Shown here piece by piece: positions 203-63,866 of a stretch of 64,000 nt of DNA (positions are counted from its first letter, which is position 1; the number at the start of each line of letters is the position of its first letter). The DNA lies in the NCBI RefSeq assembly GCF_000021985.1, contig NC_011901.1, positions 2,862,501-2,926,500 on the forward strand, read 5' to 3'. The position numbers and the translations under genes are program-made. A model generated the notes under the pieces. The model did no database searches. It was not told where the DNA came from and saw only the letters and a program-made list of their open reading frames with translations. This stretch comes from Thioalkalivibrio sulfidiphilus HL-EbGr7. GTDB lineage: Bacteria; Pseudomonadota; Gammaproteobacteria; Ectothiorhodospirales; Ectothiorhodospiraceae.

Positions 203-1324
203 ATGAGCGCCGAAAACCGGATCAGGGCCCTGCGCGCGCTGGGTCAGAGCATCTGGTATGACTACATCCGCCGGGACCTGCTGGATTCCGGCGAACTGGC
301 GCGCCTGATCCGCGAGGACGGCCTGGGCGGGCTCACCTCCAACCCCGCCATCTTCGACAAGGCCATCGCCGGCACCGACCTGTACCGCACGGCCATCCGC
401 GACGCCCTGCGGGCGGACCCCGGACTCAACGACGAGGCCCTGTTCTTCCGGCTGGCCATCGAGGACCTGCAGCGGGCCGCCGACGTATTCCTGCCCCTGT
501 ACCGGGAGACCGGCGGTGCCGACGGCTTCGTCAGCCTGGAGGTCTCCCCGGACCTGGCCCACGACGCCGAGGCCACGGTGCGCGAGGCCCGCGCCCTGTT
601 CGCGCGCATGGACCGGCCCAACGCCATGATCAAGGTGCCCGGCACCCGCGCCGGGGTCGAGGCCCTGGAGACGCTGATCGCAGACGGCGTGAACGTGAAC
701 GTCACCCTGCTGTTCTCCGTGGCCCGCTACGCGCAGGTGCTGGAGGCCTGGATGCGCGGCATGGAGGCGCGGCTGGAGCGGGGCGAAGCCCTTGAGACTG
801 TGACCTCGGTGGCGAGCTTCTTCGTCAGCCGGGTGGACAGCGTCCTGGACCCGCTGCTCGAGGAACGCATCCAGGAAGGGCGGCCGGCGGAACACCTGCG
901 CGGCCGACTGGCCATCGCCAACGCCCGCCTGGCCTATGCCCATTTCCGCGACCAGCGCGGCGGCGCGCGCCACACCCGCCTGACTGCCGCCGGGGCCCAT
1001 CCCCAGCGCCTGCTGTGGGCCAGCACCGGCACCAAGAACCCCGACTACAGCGACGTGCTGTACGTGGACAGCCTGATCGGTGAGCACACCGTCAACACCC
1101 TGCCCCCAGCCACCTACCGGGCCTTCCTGGACCATGGCTCGGTGGCCGAGACCCTGGCCGAAGGCGTGGAGACGGCACGGGCCCAGGTGGCTGCGCTGGC
1201 GGACCTGGGCATCGACCTGGAAAGCATCACCGACCGCCTGGAGAGCGAGGGCATCGAGGCCTTCCAGAAGGCCTTCCGGCACCTGCTCGGCGTGCTGGCC
1301 GAGGCCCGGCAGGGGAAGCGATGA
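203..1324 (+). CDS. tal: Transaldolase
   Basis: Transaldolase moves a dihydroxyacetone unit between sugar phosphates in the non-oxidative pentose phosphate pathway (cytoplasm). The 373-residue product has the N-terminal TSNPAIF motif (about 45-51), the MIKVPGT motif whose lysine (about 144) should form the Schiff base, and the NVNVTLLFS strand typical of the family. It belongs to the longer transaldolase type rather than the roughly 317-residue TalB type. The ATG at 203 is preferred because an earlier in-frame start at 140 lies inside the hairpin repeat. The stop overlaps the pgl start (ATGA), so the two are probably translationally coupled. Family assignment is secure. Confidence 0.95.
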
Positions 1325-4522: not shown

Positions 4523-4993
4523 TCACTGTGAGGGAGCCGGCGAATCCACACAGCCTTGGGTATCGAAGCCGTCCGCCAGGTGTTGCAGCGGCTCCTGATG
4601 ACTGCTTGCAAGGGCCTCCATAACCCGACCCCAGATACCTGCTGAATCAAAACACCGGGGCACGGAGATCCGGTATTCACCCTGCTCCGCCAACAACTCA
4701 AGGCTCACGCGATCCCAGCAACCGTTGACATCTCGAACGGCACGCGCGGTAGACAGCCTCTCCAGATCTATACACAGGGAAGCGTCCGGCCCCGCCAAGC
4801 GCAGACATGGCCCCTCCTGACAGCAGCTGATGCCAGCCGCACGGATGGCTACCTCCCCGGCGTGGCTGATCAGACCGATATCTACCGTGAGGGCATGGTC
4901 CTCCAGAAGCCTGAGCAAGGCGGGCACATCCCGAAGATCAATGGACCAGTGGCGCTGGTGCTGCGATAGGGGTTCCATGCGATTTGCGGCCAT
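4523..4993 (-). CDS. Uncharacterised protein, Fur-linked operon
   Basis: A 156-residue soluble protein with no signal peptide or membrane segment. The ATG at 4993 has AGGGAGG about 7 bases upstream; a GTG two codons earlier is too close to it. The central stretch ISCCQEGPCLRLAG has three nearby cysteines. Alternating hydrophobic stretches (DIGLISHAGEVAIRAAG, LELLAEQGEYRISVP) suggest a beta-rich fold. The gene starts 2 bases after the stop of a 54-residue gene and is followed by a 71-residue one. A distant relation to haem-handling proteins (HemS/HutX fold) is conceivable from size and context, but no motif proves it. Confidence 0.6.
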   Translation of the reverse strand: MAANRMEPLSQHQRHWSIDLRDVPALLRLLEDHALTVDIGLISHAGEVAIRAAGISCCQEGPCLRLAGPDASLCIDLERLSTARAVRDVNGCWDRVSLELLAEQGEYRISVPRCFDSAGIWGRVMEALASSHQEPLQHLADGFDTQGCVDSPAPSQ

Positions 4994-52857: not shown

Positions 52858-53307
52858 TCACAGCCATTTCGCATCCCAGTGAGGGTAATCACCCAACCGA
52901 TCAACCAACCCGGCCCGCAACGGATTCGCTACCACATATCTCGCCACATCGACCAGATCCTCCTCCCGCCTCAAGGCGTGATCATGAAAACTCTGCTGCC
53001 AGATTCGACCTGACCTGCCCAAGCTCAGATTGATCTGCCGGGCGCTTCGTCCCTTCAGTCGGCCGACGACACCACGCAGTTCGTAACCCGGTTGCAGAGT
53101 CAGCAGCCAATGCAGGTGATCAGGCATGAGCACCCAGGCCAGGGATTCCACCCATCCCTCCCCATGCAGCAGGCACATCTGCGCAATGACACCACGGGCA
53201 TGGGTGAAATCCAGGAACCAGGGGATGCGCTGATGCGTGACCGTGGTGACGAGGTAGATTTGGCCGGGGATTGAATCACGGCCCTTACGCAATTCCGAAT
53301 AGGGCAT
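52858..53307 (-). CDS. REP-associated tyrosine transposase (short RAYT)
   Basis: A 149-residue HUH-type single-strand transposase of the IS200-like family. The HUH motif is His64-x-His66 in MPDHLHWLL and the catalytic tyrosine is Tyr124 in ARYVVANPLRAGLV, the conserved RAYT context. The ATG at 53307 has GGAGG 8 bases upstream. It is intact and flanked on both sides by REPs (52638-52836 and 53347-53409), the palindromes such enzymes recognise. RAYTs are single-copy domesticated enzymes rather than selfish insertion sequences. Confidence 0.92.
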   Translation of the reverse strand: MPYSELRKGRDSIPGQIYLVTTVTHQRIPWFLDFTHARGVIAQMCLLHGEGWVESLAWVLMPDHLHWLLTLQPGYELRGVVGRLKGRSARQINLSLGRSGRIWQQSFHDHALRREEDLVDVARYVVANPLRAGLVDRLGDYPHWDAKWL

Positions 53308-57565: not shown

Positions 57566-57832
57566 CTACCTGTAAACGTCCTTGCGGTGGGAAACACGAA
57601 TCACAAGGATCCGGACACCTATGTCGTCAATGTGACAGACCAGCCGCCAGTCACCGATGCGGTAACGCCAGTAGTCCCTAAGATGCCCCTTCAGCGGTTT
57701 ACCTAGCGAACGGGGATTGTCAGAGGTTGCTACACGATCACGGAGGAAACGAATGATCCGCCGGGCTGTGGCGCCATCCAGATCACCCAACTCCTTGCGC
57801 GCGGATGTTTCAAACTCAATCTTCCAGACCAA
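57566..57832 (-). CDS. RelE/ParE-family toxin
   Basis: An 88-residue type II toxin. WKIEFETSARKELGDLD, HLRDYWRYRIGDWRLVCHID and ILVIRVSHRKDVYR match the RelE fold with C-terminal basic and tyrosine residues as in mRNA interferases. It begins with TTG inside the antitoxin gene (17-base overlap), a usual coupling. The promoter is that of the antitoxin. Confidence 0.9.
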   Translation of the reverse strand: MVWKIEFETSARKELGDLDGATARRIIRFLRDRVATSDNPRSLGKPLKGHLRDYWRYRIGDWRLVCHIDDIGVRILVIRVSHRKDVYR

Positions 57833-58046
57833 GATCCCTGACTACCTCGTCCAATGAGTGGGTTGTGCTACGTCCAGCGTTCAGATCTTCCATACGCGCA
57901 TCAGCCAGATAAATATCCTCAAGATCATCGAGCGCACACCGCAGAGCCTCCTTCACATAGAAGGCTTTGCTACGTTGAGTCTTCGCAGCAAGGTTCTCCA
58001 GCCGCTCGCTAAGGTCATCTGGCAGCCTGACGGCCAGTTGGCTCAT
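57816..58046 (-). CDS. RelB/RHH-type antitoxin
   Basis: A 76-residue antitoxin. N-terminal ribbon-helix-helix sequence LAVRLPDDLSERLENLAAKT followed by RSKAFYVKEALRCALDDLED, and a C-terminal toxin-binding tail. It should repress its own promoter, which lies in the first 60 bases upstream; a TGCAGCAATTACATGCAATGCA stretch split at 58058-58084 shows imperfect dyads. Confidence 0.9.
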   Translation of the reverse strand: MSQLAVRLPDDLSERLENLAAKTQRSKAFYVKEALRCALDDLEDIYLADARMEDLNAGRSTTHSLDEVVRDLGLED

Positions 58047-58114
58047 GACACATTACCTGCATTGCAGCAATTACATGCAATGCATTATGGGCGCCCGATC
58101 ACTCTGATTCAAGG

Positions 58115-58357
58115 GCGCACTTTGGGACACCCATCATCCCGAGGGCGCACTTTGGGAGGGCGCACTTTGGAGGGCGCACTTTGGGACACCCATCATCCGG
58201 CACTTTGGGACACCCATCATCCCGAGGGCGCACTTTGGGCGGAGGCACTTTGGGGGCACTTTGGGACACCCATCATCCCGGCGGAGGCACTTTGGGACAC
58301 CCATCATCCCCACACTGGCGCGCACTTTGGGCGCGCACTTTGGGACACCCATCATCC
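58115..58357. repeat. Left TGGGTGTCCCA repeat cluster (reverse orientation)
   Basis: Six full copies of CGCACTTTGGGACACCCATC-type units at about 58115, 58174, 58200, 58256, 58286 and 58334, with several truncated GCGCACTTTGGG copies between. The core TGGGTGTCCCA is a small palindrome. The cluster lies on the far side of a RAYT gene from its mirror-image cluster at 60232-60557. Confidence 0.9.
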
Positions 58358-58508
58358 CCATGGCTACTTTGTTAACCAATACGTGACTAATGCCTGACCA
58401 TGCGGTAGCGCAGCCGCCCTTGACCAGAGGTGCGCAAGGTGATCACAAAGAACGGGGGGATTTTGGGAGCTGAGATTGACGTTTGCCTGTCGGCAAGTAG
58501 CTGACCAT

Positions 58509-58536
58509 AAAAAAACCCCGGTCACGAGTACCGGGG
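58509..58536 (-). terminator. Orphan intrinsic terminator
   Basis: On the minus strand CCCCGGT-ACTCGTG-ACCGGGG is followed by TTTTTTT. It is a textbook terminator, but no gene ends nearby: the next gene upstream in this direction stops 620 bases away. Confidence 0.8.
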
Positions 58537-58734
58537 CCGGCCGTCCTGGCCTTACAGGAATTTGGTGATTGGAGCACTGGAATTTCCTGTACGACCTGTT
58601 GAGTCCTTTCCTGGGCATCCCTGTCCCAGTCGTGGAAATCCACTTTCTCTCAGATCGCAGGCAAATGATGTCGAACAGACAACCCCGCGTAAACCCCCAA
58701 ATCATGCTAATTTTGTAGGAATCTTCCACAATTC

Positions 58735-58768
58735 GTGTAGGCCCAGGCCTACACGCGGGTTTTCCCGC
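58735..58768. other. Two adjacent stem-loops in gene-free DNA
   Basis: GTGTAGGCC-CA-GGCCTACAC (58735-58754) is directly followed by GCGGG-TTTT-CCCGC (58755-58768). The stretch 58385-59156 otherwise contains no convincing gene on either strand. Along with the terminator at 58509 it may belong to an untranslated RNA or a decayed gene. Confidence 0.5.
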
Positions 58769-59156
58769 AGAATTATGCCCGTTTTGATCCCCTTAACATG
58801 CGGCGCAAACAGAACCCAAGCATATCCAGGATTGTTATCCGAAAGCCGTATGCCCCCTGGAAACACCCATAAGTCCTGACACGCAACATGCGCCACGCAT
58901 GCAGTCGGGGGCACGCGCACTGGATACGCAAATACTGAAGTGGAGATTTACTGAGAGAAAGAAGGAACGAAGAAGATCGATCCGAGAAAAGATGGAGCCG
59001 TACACCACGAATCCCTGTGATGCCGGCTCCGGCTCAAGTCCGCCTCCTTGCAGACCGAATTGAGTTTAGAACACTTAAAATGCAAATCCAGACCTGATTG
59101 ACCCGTTTTTCGAGAATTGATTCACAAAAATACCACTTTATTACATTCTGCCAGCA

Positions 59157-60167
59157 TCAATCCGCCGACAGGTACAGACGCGCAAACTGCGCTTGCCCCT
59201 TGAAATAGTTTCGGCCAAGCCGAGCCGCCGCTTCACGCATTCGAGGCTGTCGACCCATAGCGACCACCTGGTGATCCCGCCTGCCGCATCGGACATGGCT
59301 CAAGAATCGCTGCGCATCAATATTCAATCGAGCCAATATCGACGGCATGCCCGCTGGTATCGCACCGCGCTTGTCCTCCCGAATCGCCCGCCCACACCAG
59401 TCCACCAATTCCAGATAATCAGGTGTCGAAAACACGAAATCATTCGCGTGCCCACCTGATTCACATGCATCGAGGCTCACCAGATCCGGACACGCCTGCA
59501 GAGATTCCCGCGCGGAGCCATCACCCACCGAAAGCTCAAGAATACGCTGTCGCACCGAGGTGAAATTCGAATCCTCCGGTGTGTGCGCCATCCCCGCCCG
59601 TATGGGATTGAGATCCACGTAACTCATGCAAGTCAGCACTGCCGCCTCGTCCAGCAGGGCCTGGCACTTGAATCGCCCCTCCCAGAACCGCCCCTTGCAG
59701 CCGTCCTCCTGGTTGGCGCGGCGGGCCAGATGCTCATTCAGGCTACGCATGAACCAGGACAGATCCACCAGACGCGTGCGCCATTCTGCAATCACACGCC
59801 GTGCCGCATCCCGCTCCGCATCGCTCACGCGCTCACCCCTCAGCACACGGTCAACCAGCACAGGGCGTGAAAACAGCCTGGCCCAGCGAGCGGCAACTTC
59901 ATCATCGCTCCACTCCCCGGCCCGCTCTGAATCGACTCTCAGCACCAGATGATAGTGATTGGACATGACCGCGTATGCGCAGACTTCCACTGCAAAAATG
60001 GACTGAAGCTCACGCACGCGCTCCAGCACCCAGCCACGTCGGTGCTCGAAGTCCCTGCCCGAGTGCACATCCCGACCACAGAGGAACGCCCGACGCACGC
60101 AGCGGCTGATGCAATGGTAGTAAGAGGTGGTTTCCAGATGAACGAGTTCCCTTCTGGCTCTGGTCAT
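59157..60167 (-). CDS. REP-associated tyrosine transposase (long RAYT)
   Basis: A 336-residue IS200-like HUH transposase. His71-x-His73 in AVMSNHYHLVL and Tyr183 in CMSYVDLNPIRAGM are the catalytic residues, with the N-terminal YYHCISRCVRRAFLCG typical of the longer RAYT group. The C-terminal third (about 230-336) has no recognised domain. The gene is intact and lies between two clusters of the same TGGGTGTCCCA repeat in opposite orientation, which are probably its substrates. Confidence 0.92.
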   Translation of the reverse strand: MTRARRELVHLETTSYYHCISRCVRRAFLCGRDVHSGRDFEHRRGWVLERVRELQSIFAVEVCAYAVMSNHYHLVLRVDSERAGEWSDDEVAARWARLFSRPVLVDRVLRGERVSDAERDAARRVIAEWRTRLVDLSWFMRSLNEHLARRANQEDGCKGRFWEGRFKCQALLDEAAVLTCMSYVDLNPIRAGMAHTPEDSNFTSVRQRILELSVGDGSARESLQACPDLVSLDACESGGHANDFVFSTPDYLELVDWCGRAIREDKRGAIPAGMPSILARLNIDAQRFLSHVRCGRRDHQVVAMGRQPRMREAAARLGRNYFKGQAQFARLYLSAD

Positions 60168-60231
60168 TGGGCGCTCCCTGTCCCTGTTGGCATTGATTTG
60201 AAACTAGTCGCCTAGTGGCTGACAGTCAAAC

Positions 60232-60557
60232 GGATGATGGGTGTCCCAAAGTAACCACCATGGGTGTCCCAAAGTACCCACGCCCCTCACCAAAGTACCT
60301 CCCCCAAGAGGATTATGGGTGTCCCAAAGCACCGCCACCCAAAGCCCCCGTCATGGGTGTCCCAAAGTCTCGCCTCTCCACACCGCCTGGCAGATGATGG
60401 GTGTCCCAAAGCTCCTCCAGGATTATGGGTGTCCCAAAGTACCGCCACCAAAGTTCATTGGCAGATGATGGGTGTCCCAAAGTAACCAAACGGATGATGG
60501 GTGTCCCAAAGTACCTCCAAAGTGATCCGCCGTGCCGAATTATGGGTGTCCCAAAGT
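60232..60557. repeat. Right TGGGTGTCCCA repeat cluster (forward orientation)
   Basis: Nine copies of GATGATGGGTGTCCCAAAGT or GATTATGGGTGTCCCAAAG at about 60232, 60258, 60310, 60350, 60391, 60421, 60461, 60492 and 60538, and some CCAAAGT remnants. Spacing is irregular (26-52 bases). Fills the gap between the RAYT gene and the porin terminator. Confidence 0.9.
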
Positions 60558-60611
60558 GCCCTTCCAAAGTGCCCTTACCTTTAATGGGGGCCCTTATTAA
60601 ATCCTTACCAT

Positions 60612-60639
60612 AAAAAAACGGGGCCCCGAAGGGCCCCGT
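60612..60639 (-). terminator. Intrinsic terminator of the first porin gene
   Basis: On the minus strand ACGGGGCCC-TTC-GGGGCCCCGT is followed by TTTTTTTA. It lies 26 bases behind the porin stop. Confidence 0.85.
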
Positions 60640-60664
60640 CTCAATCGGCTAGGTAAAACTCCGA

Positions 60665-61732
60665 TTAGAAGGTCACGCGCATGCCGGCACCGACAACGGT
60701 TTCCTTGTTGCCCGTGTCAGCGGCACCCAGATCGTACTCGGTCTGACGCACACCGCCATGGATGGACACATTGCGGTTGAAGGCATGACGCATACCAGCG
60801 GCGATCCACTGCTGGTCGCGGTCGTCGTTCTCGGCGGAGAACTGACCGAAGCCCAGCATGAAGGTGTTGGCACCCATGCTGTAGGTACCGGACAGCATGT
60901 AGAAGTTGCCGGCATAGTTGGTATCGACACCAGCGGTATCATGCTTGATGTTCTCGTACTGTCCCACCACGCCGAAGGCACCGGTCTTGAACTGGGCACC
61001 CAGCTTGGTGGCCTGGAAGTTGGTGTCGATGGGACGGGTACGGGTGGCTTGGCCGTACTCATCGGCGTTGGTGTGGGCAACCCACACTTCCACCGGGCTC
61101 AGGTCCACGTTCACGCGCAGGGCGTACATGTGCTGACCGTTGTTGTCCTCGCTGAGGGCATCGGTATTAGCGGACTGGTCCAGGCCGAGGGTGGCGTTCA
61201 GGCTCACCATCTCGAACTTGTTTTTGTAGCCGATGGCATTGTTCACGTAGGAACCGTTACCCAGGCCCTGGAACCCACCGAGCTGGCCGCCGTTACCACG
61301 GGCCTGCATGAAGGTGGCGTTGAAGGGGTCCTTGCCGGCGGTGCCGTAGGCACTGGCCATACGACCCACGGACAGGTCACCGAAGGCACCACGCAGACCC
61401 ACCAGCACTTCACGGCTAGCGCCCAGCGCATTACCGGTGGTGATGTTCGGGTTCGCGCTCAGGTGCGCATAGCCGGTCAGGCCGTTGCCCAGGTCGTGGC
61501 TGGCGCGCAGATCGACACGGCTCCAGTTGCCGGAGTTGATGTCGCCACCTTCTTCAATGGCATCACCGATGTACAGGCCCTTGCCGTTCATGTTGGTGCC
61601 ATTGCGGGGATCGCCGGAAACGCTGAACAGCTCGGCCTGCAGCTGAGCAGACAGCTGCACATCAGCAGCAGCGATGGCGGGGATGGCCATGGCAGCGGCC
61701 ACACCAGCAGCAATCAGAGTCTTCTTCATCAT
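60665..61732 (-). CDS. Outer-membrane porin
   Basis: A 355-residue beta-barrel porin. A signal peptide MMKKTLIAAGVAAAMAIPAI with cleavage after AAA (about 25) precedes DVQLSAQLQAELF; the last strand ends in VVGAGMRVTF, with the C-terminal Phe required for barrel assembly. Amphipathic strands alternate throughout. The ATG at 61732 (or 61729) has GGGAG about 9 bases upstream. It has its own consensus promoter (61811-61839) and terminator. Specificity unknown. Confidence 0.9.
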   Translation of the reverse strand: MMKKTLIAAGVAAAMAIPAIAAADVQLSAQLQAELFSVSGDPRNGTNMNGKGLYIGDAIEEGGDINSGNWSRVDLRASHDLGNGLTGYAHLSANPNITTGNALGASREVLVGLRGAFGDLSVGRMASAYGTAGKDPFNATFMQARGNGGQLGGFQGLGNGSYVNNAIGYKNKFEMVSLNATLGLDQSANTDALSEDNNGQHMYALRVNVDLSPVEVWVAHTNADEYGQATRTRPIDTNFQATKLGAQFKTGAFGVVGQYENIKHDTAGVDTNYAGNFYMLSGTYSMGANTFMLGFGQFSAENDDRDQQWIAAGMRHAFNRNVSIHGGVRQTEYDLGAADTGNKETVVGAGMRVTF

Positions 61733-61810
61733 TGTTTCACTCTCCCAGGAGTTGAGTCTTGAAACTGCTTTCACACAAGTTTGTGTGTCATTTTCGAAAA
61801 TGACCGGCTT

Positions 61811-61839
61811 ATTATACGCCCTGATTTCGAGCATTGCAA
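61811..61839 (-). promoter_or_regulatory. Sigma70 promoter of the first porin gene
   Basis: Minus strand -35 TTGCAA (61839-61834), spacer of 17 bases, -10 TATAAT (61816-61811). The start codon is about 80 bases downstream. Confidence 0.75.
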
Positions 61840-62010
61840 GGGGTGATTCGCAAAAAAACGACAAATGCACGAAATTTGTGTTGTGTTTTTGCAACAATCA
61901 CCAGCCATGGCGCTTTGATCGAAGCCATCGAACATTGGGATCGATAGCTCAGAACTTACTTTAAGTGCGGCGTGACGGGTGCACCCGGACGGGGCGCGGG
62001 GTGTTGTTTG

Positions 62011-62846: not shown

Positions 62847-63866
62847 TCAGAAATCGAACTTGAAGTTGTGCATCACGCCGAAGCTGATGATGGAGGGGGA
62901 GGAACCACCCACCACGCCGGGGATGTTGTCACCATGGCCGCCGCCAGCGGGACGATAGGTGGCAGTGTCATCATTGTCGGTCATGGCATAGGCGGCGTAG
63001 AAGCTGGTCTGGCGGGTCAGGTTGTACTGCACACCCAGGGCCAGCATGGCGGCATCAGCATCGGTGCCGTCGTTGTCGGTCCAGTAGTACTGGGCCTTCA
63101 GCTGGGTCTTGCCCATGGTGTAGCGCACGCCCAGACCGAAGGTGTTCAGGTCGTTGTCGGCGGCGTCGGTGGCGGCCTGGTACAGACCGGTGAAGCGGAA
63201 GGCGTCCATGTCGTAGTAGGCACCCAGACGGGTGGCCTTGTTGTCGGTGCCGTTGGCGAAATCACGGGCCTCGTAGCCCAGACCGATGTACAGGGGGCCT
63301 TCGCGGTAGACGGCACCCAGGCTGTAGGCCTGGTCGTCGTTGCTGTCGGCAGCGGTGCTGTTGGTGTTGTCGTTGGTGGAGTACTCAACGCTCACGGTGA
63401 CGGGGCCCAGCTTCGGGCTGGTGTAGAACAGGGCATTGCGGAAGCGCTGGTCACCGATGCCGTTGAGCATGTTGCGGGAGTCACCGGCCTGGTCACCGAA
63501 CAGATCGGTGGCGCGGCTGATGCCCTTGGTGACGGTGTCGCTGTAACCGGCGCGAATGCGACCGAAGCCGCCTTCCAGACCCACGAAGGTGTTGCGGGTG
63601 CCCAGACGACCGTTGTTGGAATCACCAGCGGCCTCGAAGTTGGACTCGACCTGGAAGAAACCCTTCAGATCGTCGGTCAGCTGCTGGGAACCGCGCACGC
63701 CGACGCGGCTGGAGTTGTTGGAGACGTTGGTGGCGCTGTAGTCGCCATCGTTATCCAGGTAGTCAAAGGACACATGGGCACGGCCGTAGATGCTGGCATC
63801 GGCCATGGCCACGGCGGGCACAGCGAGGGCAGCGGCCACGGCCACCACGAGCACTTGCTTCTTCAT
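62847..63866 (-). CDS. Gram-negative porin (general porin type)
   Basis: A 339-residue outer-membrane barrel of the Neisseria/Bordetella-like general porin group. The signal peptide is MKKQVLVVAVAAALAVPAVA with cleavage after AMA (about 22); the mature start ASIYGRAHVSFDYLD and the strand GFFQVESNFE are typical, and the final strand ends VMHNFKFDF with terminal Phe. GGGGAG lies about 9 bases before the ATG. It is unlike the first porin outside the signal region, so the two are not a recent duplication. Confidence 0.93.
   Translation of the reverse strand: MKKQVLVVAVAAALAVPAVAMADASIYGRAHVSFDYLDNDGDYSATNVSNNSSRVGVRGSQQLTDDLKGFFQVESNFEAAGDSNNGRLGTRNTFVGLEGGFGRIRAGYSDTVTKGISRATDLFGDQAGDSRNMLNGIGDQRFRNALFYTSPKLGPVTVSVEYSTNDNTNSTAADSNDDQAYSLGAVYREGPLYIGLGYEARDFANGTDNKATRLGAYYDMDAFRFTGLYQAATDAADNDLNTFGLGVRYTMGKTQLKAQYYWTDNDGTDADAAMLALGVQYNLTRQTSFYAAYAMTDNDDTATYRPAGGGHGDNIPGVVGGSSPSIISFGVMHNFKFDF

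Follow-up and report, generated by a model that had tools for sequence, protein, structure and literature searches.

Outward-facing core elements beside subclass 2.3 TnpA-Y1 transposases, a candidate recognition sequence and a possible one-ended route of array growth in Thioalkalivibrio sulfidiphilus

The window analysed here is a 64 kb stretch of the T. sulfidiphilus HL-EbGr7 genome (G000:C1:2862501-2926500; the genome is a single contig of 3.46 Mb), and it carries a Y1 HUH transposase gene bracketed by two clusters of a short repeat whose units all point away from the gene (Table 1). An earlier note on this DNA had described six reverse units to the left and nine forward units to the right of an intact 336-codon HUH transposase, and the mapping agrees in every particular: exact copies of TGGGTGTCCCA fall at six minus-strand positions (58123, 58182, 58206, 58262, 58293 and 58341) and nine plus-strand positions (60238, 60261, 60316, 60354, 60398, 60426, 60469, 60498 and 60543), and the open reading frame between them encodes a protein with Y1 motifs. 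With up to one mismatch allowed, TGGGTGTCCCA was matched 15 times in the 64 kb, whereas shuffled sequence averages 2.09 matches and none of 100 shuffles reached that total. The core of the gene-proximal unit begins 70 nt upstream of the start codon, a placement that is similar in many relatives. Interspersed with the full units are half-units that keep the tail only (CCAAAGT...), with further examples in the right cluster near 60340, 60452, 60516 and 60563, while some full units are truncated on the 5' side at differing points, two of them directly before ATGGG. A ParE-type toxin gene adjoins the left cluster, and two neighbouring porin-like genes lie beyond the right one. Elsewhere in the window a partial Y1_Tnp match is perhaps the remnant of another Y1 family.

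Table 1. Features of the transposase locus and of related loci. Plain coordinates are window positions; others are prefixed with genome, contig or locus.
Feature	Coordinates	Strand or orientation	Detail
Y1 HUH transposase gene	59157..60167	-	336 aa, intact ORF; motifs NHYH, WE, YVDLNP
Left cluster, past the gene's 3' end	58115..58364	-	6 full units, all outward
Right cluster, upstream of the gene	60225..60576	+	9 full units, all outward
Gene-proximal unit GTCAAACGGATGA-TGGGTGTCC-CAAAGT	60225..60252	+	right cluster
Left-cluster half-units, tail without core	58144..58181	-	repeat family D3
Right-cluster half-unit CCAAAGTACC...	60290..60307	+	repeat families D6, D10
ParE-type toxin gene	57566-57832	-	PF05016, 53.6 bits
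Two porin-like genes	60665-61897 and 62847-63866	-	
Partial Y1_Tnp match	~52933-53154	-	36.7 bits; 168-aa open frame
Gene-less core cluster	G000:C1 2734881-2735111	single orientation	6 units
Gene-less core cluster	G000:C1 2841398-2841513	single orientation	3 units
Gene-less core cluster	G000:C1 3188131-3188237	single orientation	4 units
Gene-less core cluster	G000:C1 3114262-3114452	single orientation	5 ATGGGTGTCC
Relic subclass 2.3 gene (L016)	G000:C1 ~1805154-1806042		three 5' fragments among units
Y1 gene L013	G000:C1 1416320-1416631 and flanks		
FitA-like antitoxin and PIN-domain toxin genes, ALJ17	L029 755-1473		
AT-rich repeat, TTGAATTTTGAATCTTGAATC type	L149 ~600-650		
GC-rich inverted repeat, ~25-30 nt	L026 ~4763-4794		

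The window protein scores 23.6 bits against Pfam Y1_Tnp (cut-off 23) and 45.2 bits against NCBIfam REP_Tyr_transpos, which is under the cut-off of 80 for that family. The residues of the HUH motif and the single catalytic tyrosine (H71, H73 and Y183) are invariant across 73 aligned proteins, and the motifs of subclass 2.3 are found at N70-H73 (NHYH), W162-E163 (WE) and Y183-P188 (YVDLNP), with a distance of 110 from H73 to Y183 and a length of 336 aa that fit this subclass (~325 aa, HuH-to-Tyr ~110). An AlphaFold2 model built on the 73-protein alignment (pLDDT 85.5, pTM 0.89) has as its best solved match 4er8, the E. coli TnpAREP with its REP hairpin (VIA Z 11.6, with the next at ~6 and IS608 at about 6; Foldseek E 3.8e-4 for 4er8). 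Among PDB sequences, phmmer with the window protein returned no matches, and a profile of the aligned family returned no relative and three weak, unrelated matches. By motif and modelled fold the protein belongs to the Y1 HUH superfamily, with cleavage of single-stranded DNA predicted, and its motifs, length and spacing are those of TnpA-Y1 subclass 2.3. The fold is shared with IS200/IS605 elements (IS608, ISDra2), from which the window protein differs in being much longer, in lacking near-identical genome copies and in having no stable subterminal hairpin.

Subclass 2.3 comprised 224 proteins in the 2018 census, which reports that automatic and manual searches alike yielded no REP-like sequences for subclasses 2.1 and 2.3 (Quentin et al. 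2018, PMC6006769). The present family resembles the subclass as set out there in its NHYH/WE/YVDLNP motifs, its length class, its median HuH-to-Tyr distance of 110 and its gammaproteobacterial hosts, but it differs in that an outward core stands beside most members examined. This was evident from the best 80 of 544 relatives, which with the window give 81 loci, of which 79 have long enough flanks upstream and 78 downstream; the closest named relative among these 80 is T. sulfidiphilus ALJ17, with a transposase 98% identical. Across the 80 relatives, the best inverted repeat between a gene's two flanks often contained the same core with two positions varying. Within 400 bp upstream, TGNNTGTC[CT] occurs facing outward at 68 of 79 loci and inward at two, with 4.6 expected from shuffles; within 450 bp downstream it is outward at 48 of 78 and inward at six, with 6.6 expected. 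The upstream core is missing at 11 of the 79, at one of them (ALJ17, L029) because of an insertion. Bases 3-4 of the core vary among GG, CG, GA, GC, CC, TC and AG, so that the core is generally non-palindromic. Among the titles and abstract openings given by literature searches, from which subscription papers were mostly absent, none linked the core to a transposase: papers containing both TGGGTGTCC and 'transposase' looked unrelated by title, and GGGTGTCC by itself is a frequent string. Rfam gave no matches at gathering thresholds in window positions 57800-60800.

Where an upstream core is present, the first one lies mostly 60-110 bp from the start codon, and such a fixed offset might be expected of a double-stranded operator through which the protein controls its own gene. 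That explanation is very unlikely, given that outward cores stand downstream as well and that cores are also found at gene-less clusters where DNA was copied; an operator function could nonetheless be an added role.

A more specific tie between core and enzyme emerged from covariation. Of the 80 relatives, 72 were aligned with the window protein, eight having been dropped as broken or startless, and 62 loci combined an intact aligned protein with a core no more than 140 bp upstream. Of all protein columns, residue 141 goes best with core base 3 (z 9.6; next 5.3), the base-residue pairs being G-Arg at 46 loci, C-Lys at eight, G-Lys at four, C-Arg at two and T-Lys and A-Arg at one each. On a maximum-likelihood tree Arg/Lys141 changes four times. 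Nine Alcanivoracaceae have Lys141, six of them with TGCG as the first upstream core, and L049 and L054, nested in this group, have Arg141 with TGGG; Pseudoalteromonas has Lys141 with TGCC or TGTC, and two Saccharospirillum loci (L100 and L107) have Lys141 with mixed cores. Exceptions run in both directions. Arg141 accompanies CC (C3) at L072 and L081 and a downstream CC at L089, and Lys141 accompanies G3 upstream with C3 downstream at L045, L056 and L059, and GA upstream with CC downstream at L100.

A further 29 loci (L109-L137) were considered; they include the ALJ17 gene a second time (L109) and many near relatives of loci in the discovery set. Twenty have Arg141 with an upstream core (18 G3 and two A3, the latter at L129 and L137), five have Lys141 with no upstream core within 250 bp or the available flank, and the remaining four gave no information on covariation. 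Four of the five Lys141 loci carry GCCTGTC downstream (three TGCC, one CGCC), and this Lys141 clade outside the discovery set is, judged from its sequences, in agreement with the base 3 pairing. For core base 4, column 160 is suggestive (z 6.6), yet His160 occurs with GG in Aeromonas. In the AlphaFold2 model residue 141 lies within helix 136-155, which precedes the WE motif and the tyrosine helix, and we infer that this helix corresponds to the DNA-binding helix alpha-3 of TnpAREP as described by Corneloup et al. (2021, PMC8266576). The earlier suggestion that the units are this enzyme's own substrate is thus strengthened at the level of the family, both by the outward cores at 68 of 79 loci and by the pairing of residue 141 with core base 3.

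Given the fold shared with TnpAREP, it might be expected that the unit forms a short hairpin, recognised in the manner of the GTAG-type REPs that serve other TnpAREP enzymes. Upstream arms beside the core are indeed more complementary than swapped arms (3.35 versus 2.98; 0 of 2000 permutations, n=68), but downstream arms are weaker (n=48; shares of 0.03 to 0.16), and the upstream result is therefore not built upon. The 4-bp stem pointed out previously exists as letters in the window unit, yet folding of the 15 units in the window does not surpass that of dinucleotide shuffles (mean z -0.01), the 67 first units of other loci give no clear signal (z -0.23, standard error 0.15), and a whole-unit energy swap gives no hairpin signal (-1.34 versus -1.27, sd 0.11). 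The full TGGGTGTCCCA palindrome is present in only four of 41 TGGG-type first units at other loci, and the proposal of a REP-like palindrome as the recognised form is not supported. The units lack the GTAG foot, as had been stated, and no inverted pairs of the BIME or REPIN kind occur in the two window clusters or in four other clusters. A classical REP is the least probable of the explanations weighed here and most improbable on its own terms. Compared with TnpAREP/REP systems (REPtrons, REPINs; PMC8266576), the fold of 4er8 and the occurrence of repeats both next to the gene and dispersed through the genome are alike, while the absence of GTAG or a stable hairpin, the direct arrays in place of inverted pairs and the cluster-specific tail are unlike.

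Within the HL-EbGr7 genome the tail reads CAAAGT at the gene, CAACTCGCC at L024, CAAACCGCC at L025, CAAACCGAGCC at L026, CCAAG or TCAACGG at L149 and TCTTTTACTT at the relic L016. Because tails differ among clusters of this one genome, CAAAGT cannot be a general recognition sequence, contrary to what had been suggested, and on this comparison that tail, like the 4-bp palindrome, is a local feature. The element is best read as a core, TGNNTGTC[CT], of linear form and set orientation, which would be recognised facing outward from the gene, not as a stable REP hairpin.

How the arrays grew can be approached from 122 unit copies on 46 locus-sides that have a recognisable earlier copy (homologies under 6 nt were dropped). 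On the 3' side, homology continues beyond the core for a median of 8 nt and exceeds 20 nt in five of the 122, while on the 5' side the median is 10.5, 36 of the 122 exceed 20 nt and some reach the 150-nt limit; the two extents differ in spread (Levene p 4e-6), and a sign test that takes the maximum extent for each locus-side is weak (29 to 15, p 0.049). As aligned, copies end alike on the 3' side, ~8 nt past the core, and are ragged at the 5' end. Among 81 consecutive pairs (pairs with less than 8 nt of 5' or 5 nt of 3' homology were left out), the spacer in 29 equals, to a tolerance of -4 to +6 nt, one unit's tail plus the upstream DNA copied with the next unit, as at L033 (14 + 119 nt, overlap 0), L067 (9 + 139, 1), L098 (11 + 158, 0) and L105 (9 + 51, 0). 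Unexplained filler is present at 38 of the 81 junctions and an overlap above 6 nt at 14, and growth was therefore not always so simple. Among the segments copied are the 5' end of the transposase gene itself, at L033, L105 and the relic L016, and, at L024, the end of an adjacent host gene; nearby reading frames at L024 contain no transposase.

Passive tandem repeats, expanded by slippage or unequal crossing-over with a merely adjacent transposase, would account for some of this, in that short direct repeats slip readily, the 14 overlapping junctions resemble periodic arrays and arrays vary among strains. Such processes give no reason for copies to share a 3' end while varying at the 5' end, for many junctions to have almost no microhomology, for the units to keep the same place and direction next to a single gene family, or for covariation at residue 141, and they are an unlikely origin for the units. 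The earlier claim that clusters grew by local amplification is upheld by the fixed 3' ends, the tail plus copied-upstream junctions and the strain differences in arrays, while its corollary, growth outward from the gene only, is not supported, as gene-less clusters show the same pattern.

Those gene-less clusters, four of which are listed in Table 1, are part of a wider distribution. ATGGGTGTCC occurs 52 times in the HL-EbGr7 genome against 0 for a reversed-pattern control, and most lone copies inspected look like chance occurrences. Counts were extended to 38 of 47 family genomes, those at least 90% complete, with statistics that ignore kinship. In 12 genomes with a relative at least 64% identical the median is 18 (control 2), in 22 other family genomes 10 (control 3) and in four genomes in which a relative is absent at E 1e-10 it is 2 (control 0.5); the first and last groups differ at p 0.006 with kinship ignored. 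Equal repeat density in genomes without the transposase, which the earlier note had named as evidence against its proposal, was therefore not what was found, the median of 2 (n=4) standing against 18 and 10.

A further explanation is that the inverted outward units are the termini of a mobile element, IS-like or TIRtron-like, which carries the entire gene with it. Inverted units do lie on both gene sides, as in the TIRtrons (TIRYT) of Di Nocera et al. (2013, PMC3733652), and the complement of GTGTCCCC fits the TIRtron motif GGGGWSAS given there; loci with TGTCCCC read GGGGACA on the other strand, while the window reads GGGACAC. The same genome also holds a relic, L016, with 5' gene fragments 60-77% identical. 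However, a second near-identical copy is absent from the genome, which has one intact copy, the rest being partial relics or stretches less than 40% identical, and there are many same-orientation units per side as well as clusters without a gene; the single-orientation arrays with a fixed 3' end are likewise unlike TIRtrons. Most TIRYT were placed in subclass 2.1 by Quentin et al. (PMC6006769). The present system may or may not be a TIRtron variant. Mobile-element ends are quite unlikely as the whole explanation, and are partly compatible with the reading of the units as a recognition element.

Relic L016 is a second subclass 2.3 gene, whose fragments lie among units with the TCTTTTACTT tail; it also holds a different palindrome, GGGGTCGGTGACAAATGATTTTCATTAGTCACCGACCCC, which may belong to another Y1 family. 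Pfam finds five Y1 genes in the genome, of which L009, L010 and L013 were read; L011 and L012 lie on the other strand. The flanks of L009 and L010 contain no comparable inverted core. L013 is flanked by GTAG-type inverted repeats, and GTAG-5 repeats are listed for Thioalkalivibrio HL-EbGR7 by Di Nocera et al. (PMC3733652).

Copy number beside the gene, for which a strain comparison had been recommended, does differ between strains. In G044, taken as ALJ17, there are 15 TGGGTGTCC on the transposase contig (L029) and 24 on contig C60 (L179), thus 39 on two contigs against nine in the window, and the C60 array runs into a porin gene as does the window cluster. Both array contigs stop at sequences that recur at several contig ends and are probably insertion sequences, and a single broken array in ALJ17 is for this reason a presumption. 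Aligned homology between ALJ17 and the window breaks off at window position 60246, where the first TGGGTGTCC has its final base. A toxin-antitoxin gene pair, located between the ALJ17 array and its transposase, begins exactly there. The L149 cluster has seven units by TGGATGTCC, its ALJ17 orthologue has four, and the orthologous stretches of G045 and G043 have none; the ALJ17 orthologue of L024 has one unit with another tail, and for the L026 cluster only one flank was matched. L149 also contains an AT-rich repeat with dozens of copies in each of four relatives searched, and the inverted repeat at L026 has many copies in four relatives.

The outward association across the 81 loci, the covariation at residue 141, the single-orientation clusters, the common 3' ends and ragged 5' ends of copies, their recurrence at gene-less clusters and the strain-differing arrays are direct observations. 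On these sequence comparisons, the units are probably (roughly two chances in three) the recognition element of the neighbouring subclass 2.3 enzyme, with a putative nick just 3' of the core driving one-ended duplication. We infer a 3' nick and a variable upstream re-entry because these would be expected to give fixed 3' ends, ragged 5' ends and little microhomology. The enzyme would cut one strand (the strand and polarity being presumed) a few nt beyond the core on its 3' side; the outward flank would then carry a 5'-phosphotyrosine, and a free 3' end would remain. This 3' end may then re-prime, or a fragment ending there may join, at a variable upstream point, after which the new copy would be sealed onto the same outward flank. 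Every round would thus add one copy, terminated at the cut site and including the DNA that happened to lie upstream, be it the start of the transposase gene or the end part of a host gene, and scattered units would be acted on by the enzyme in trans. Copies with one fixed end and an arbitrary start would, under one-ended duplication, be comparable to 5'-truncated retroelements. Similar arrays would also result from two steps, in which full-length duplicates were later trimmed at the 5' end. It is conceivable, though doubtful enough to be put forward tentatively, that subclass 2.3 enzymes are engines of one-ended tandem duplication, which use residue 141, and perhaps also residue 160, to recognise a linear core of nine bases, nick a few bases 3' of it, repeatedly copy the DNA upstream and duplicate pieces of neighbouring genes wherever the core has landed.

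Subclass 2.3, previously reported without a DNA partner, gains from these comparisons a candidate recognition core, and with it a single-residue prediction, namely that R141K should move preference from TGGG towards TGCG. One-ended growth, if true, would be unlike both REPIN mobility and cut-and-paste transposition and would explain debris-like repeat arrays, and it would give bacteria a route by which short host segments are duplicated beside a nick site.
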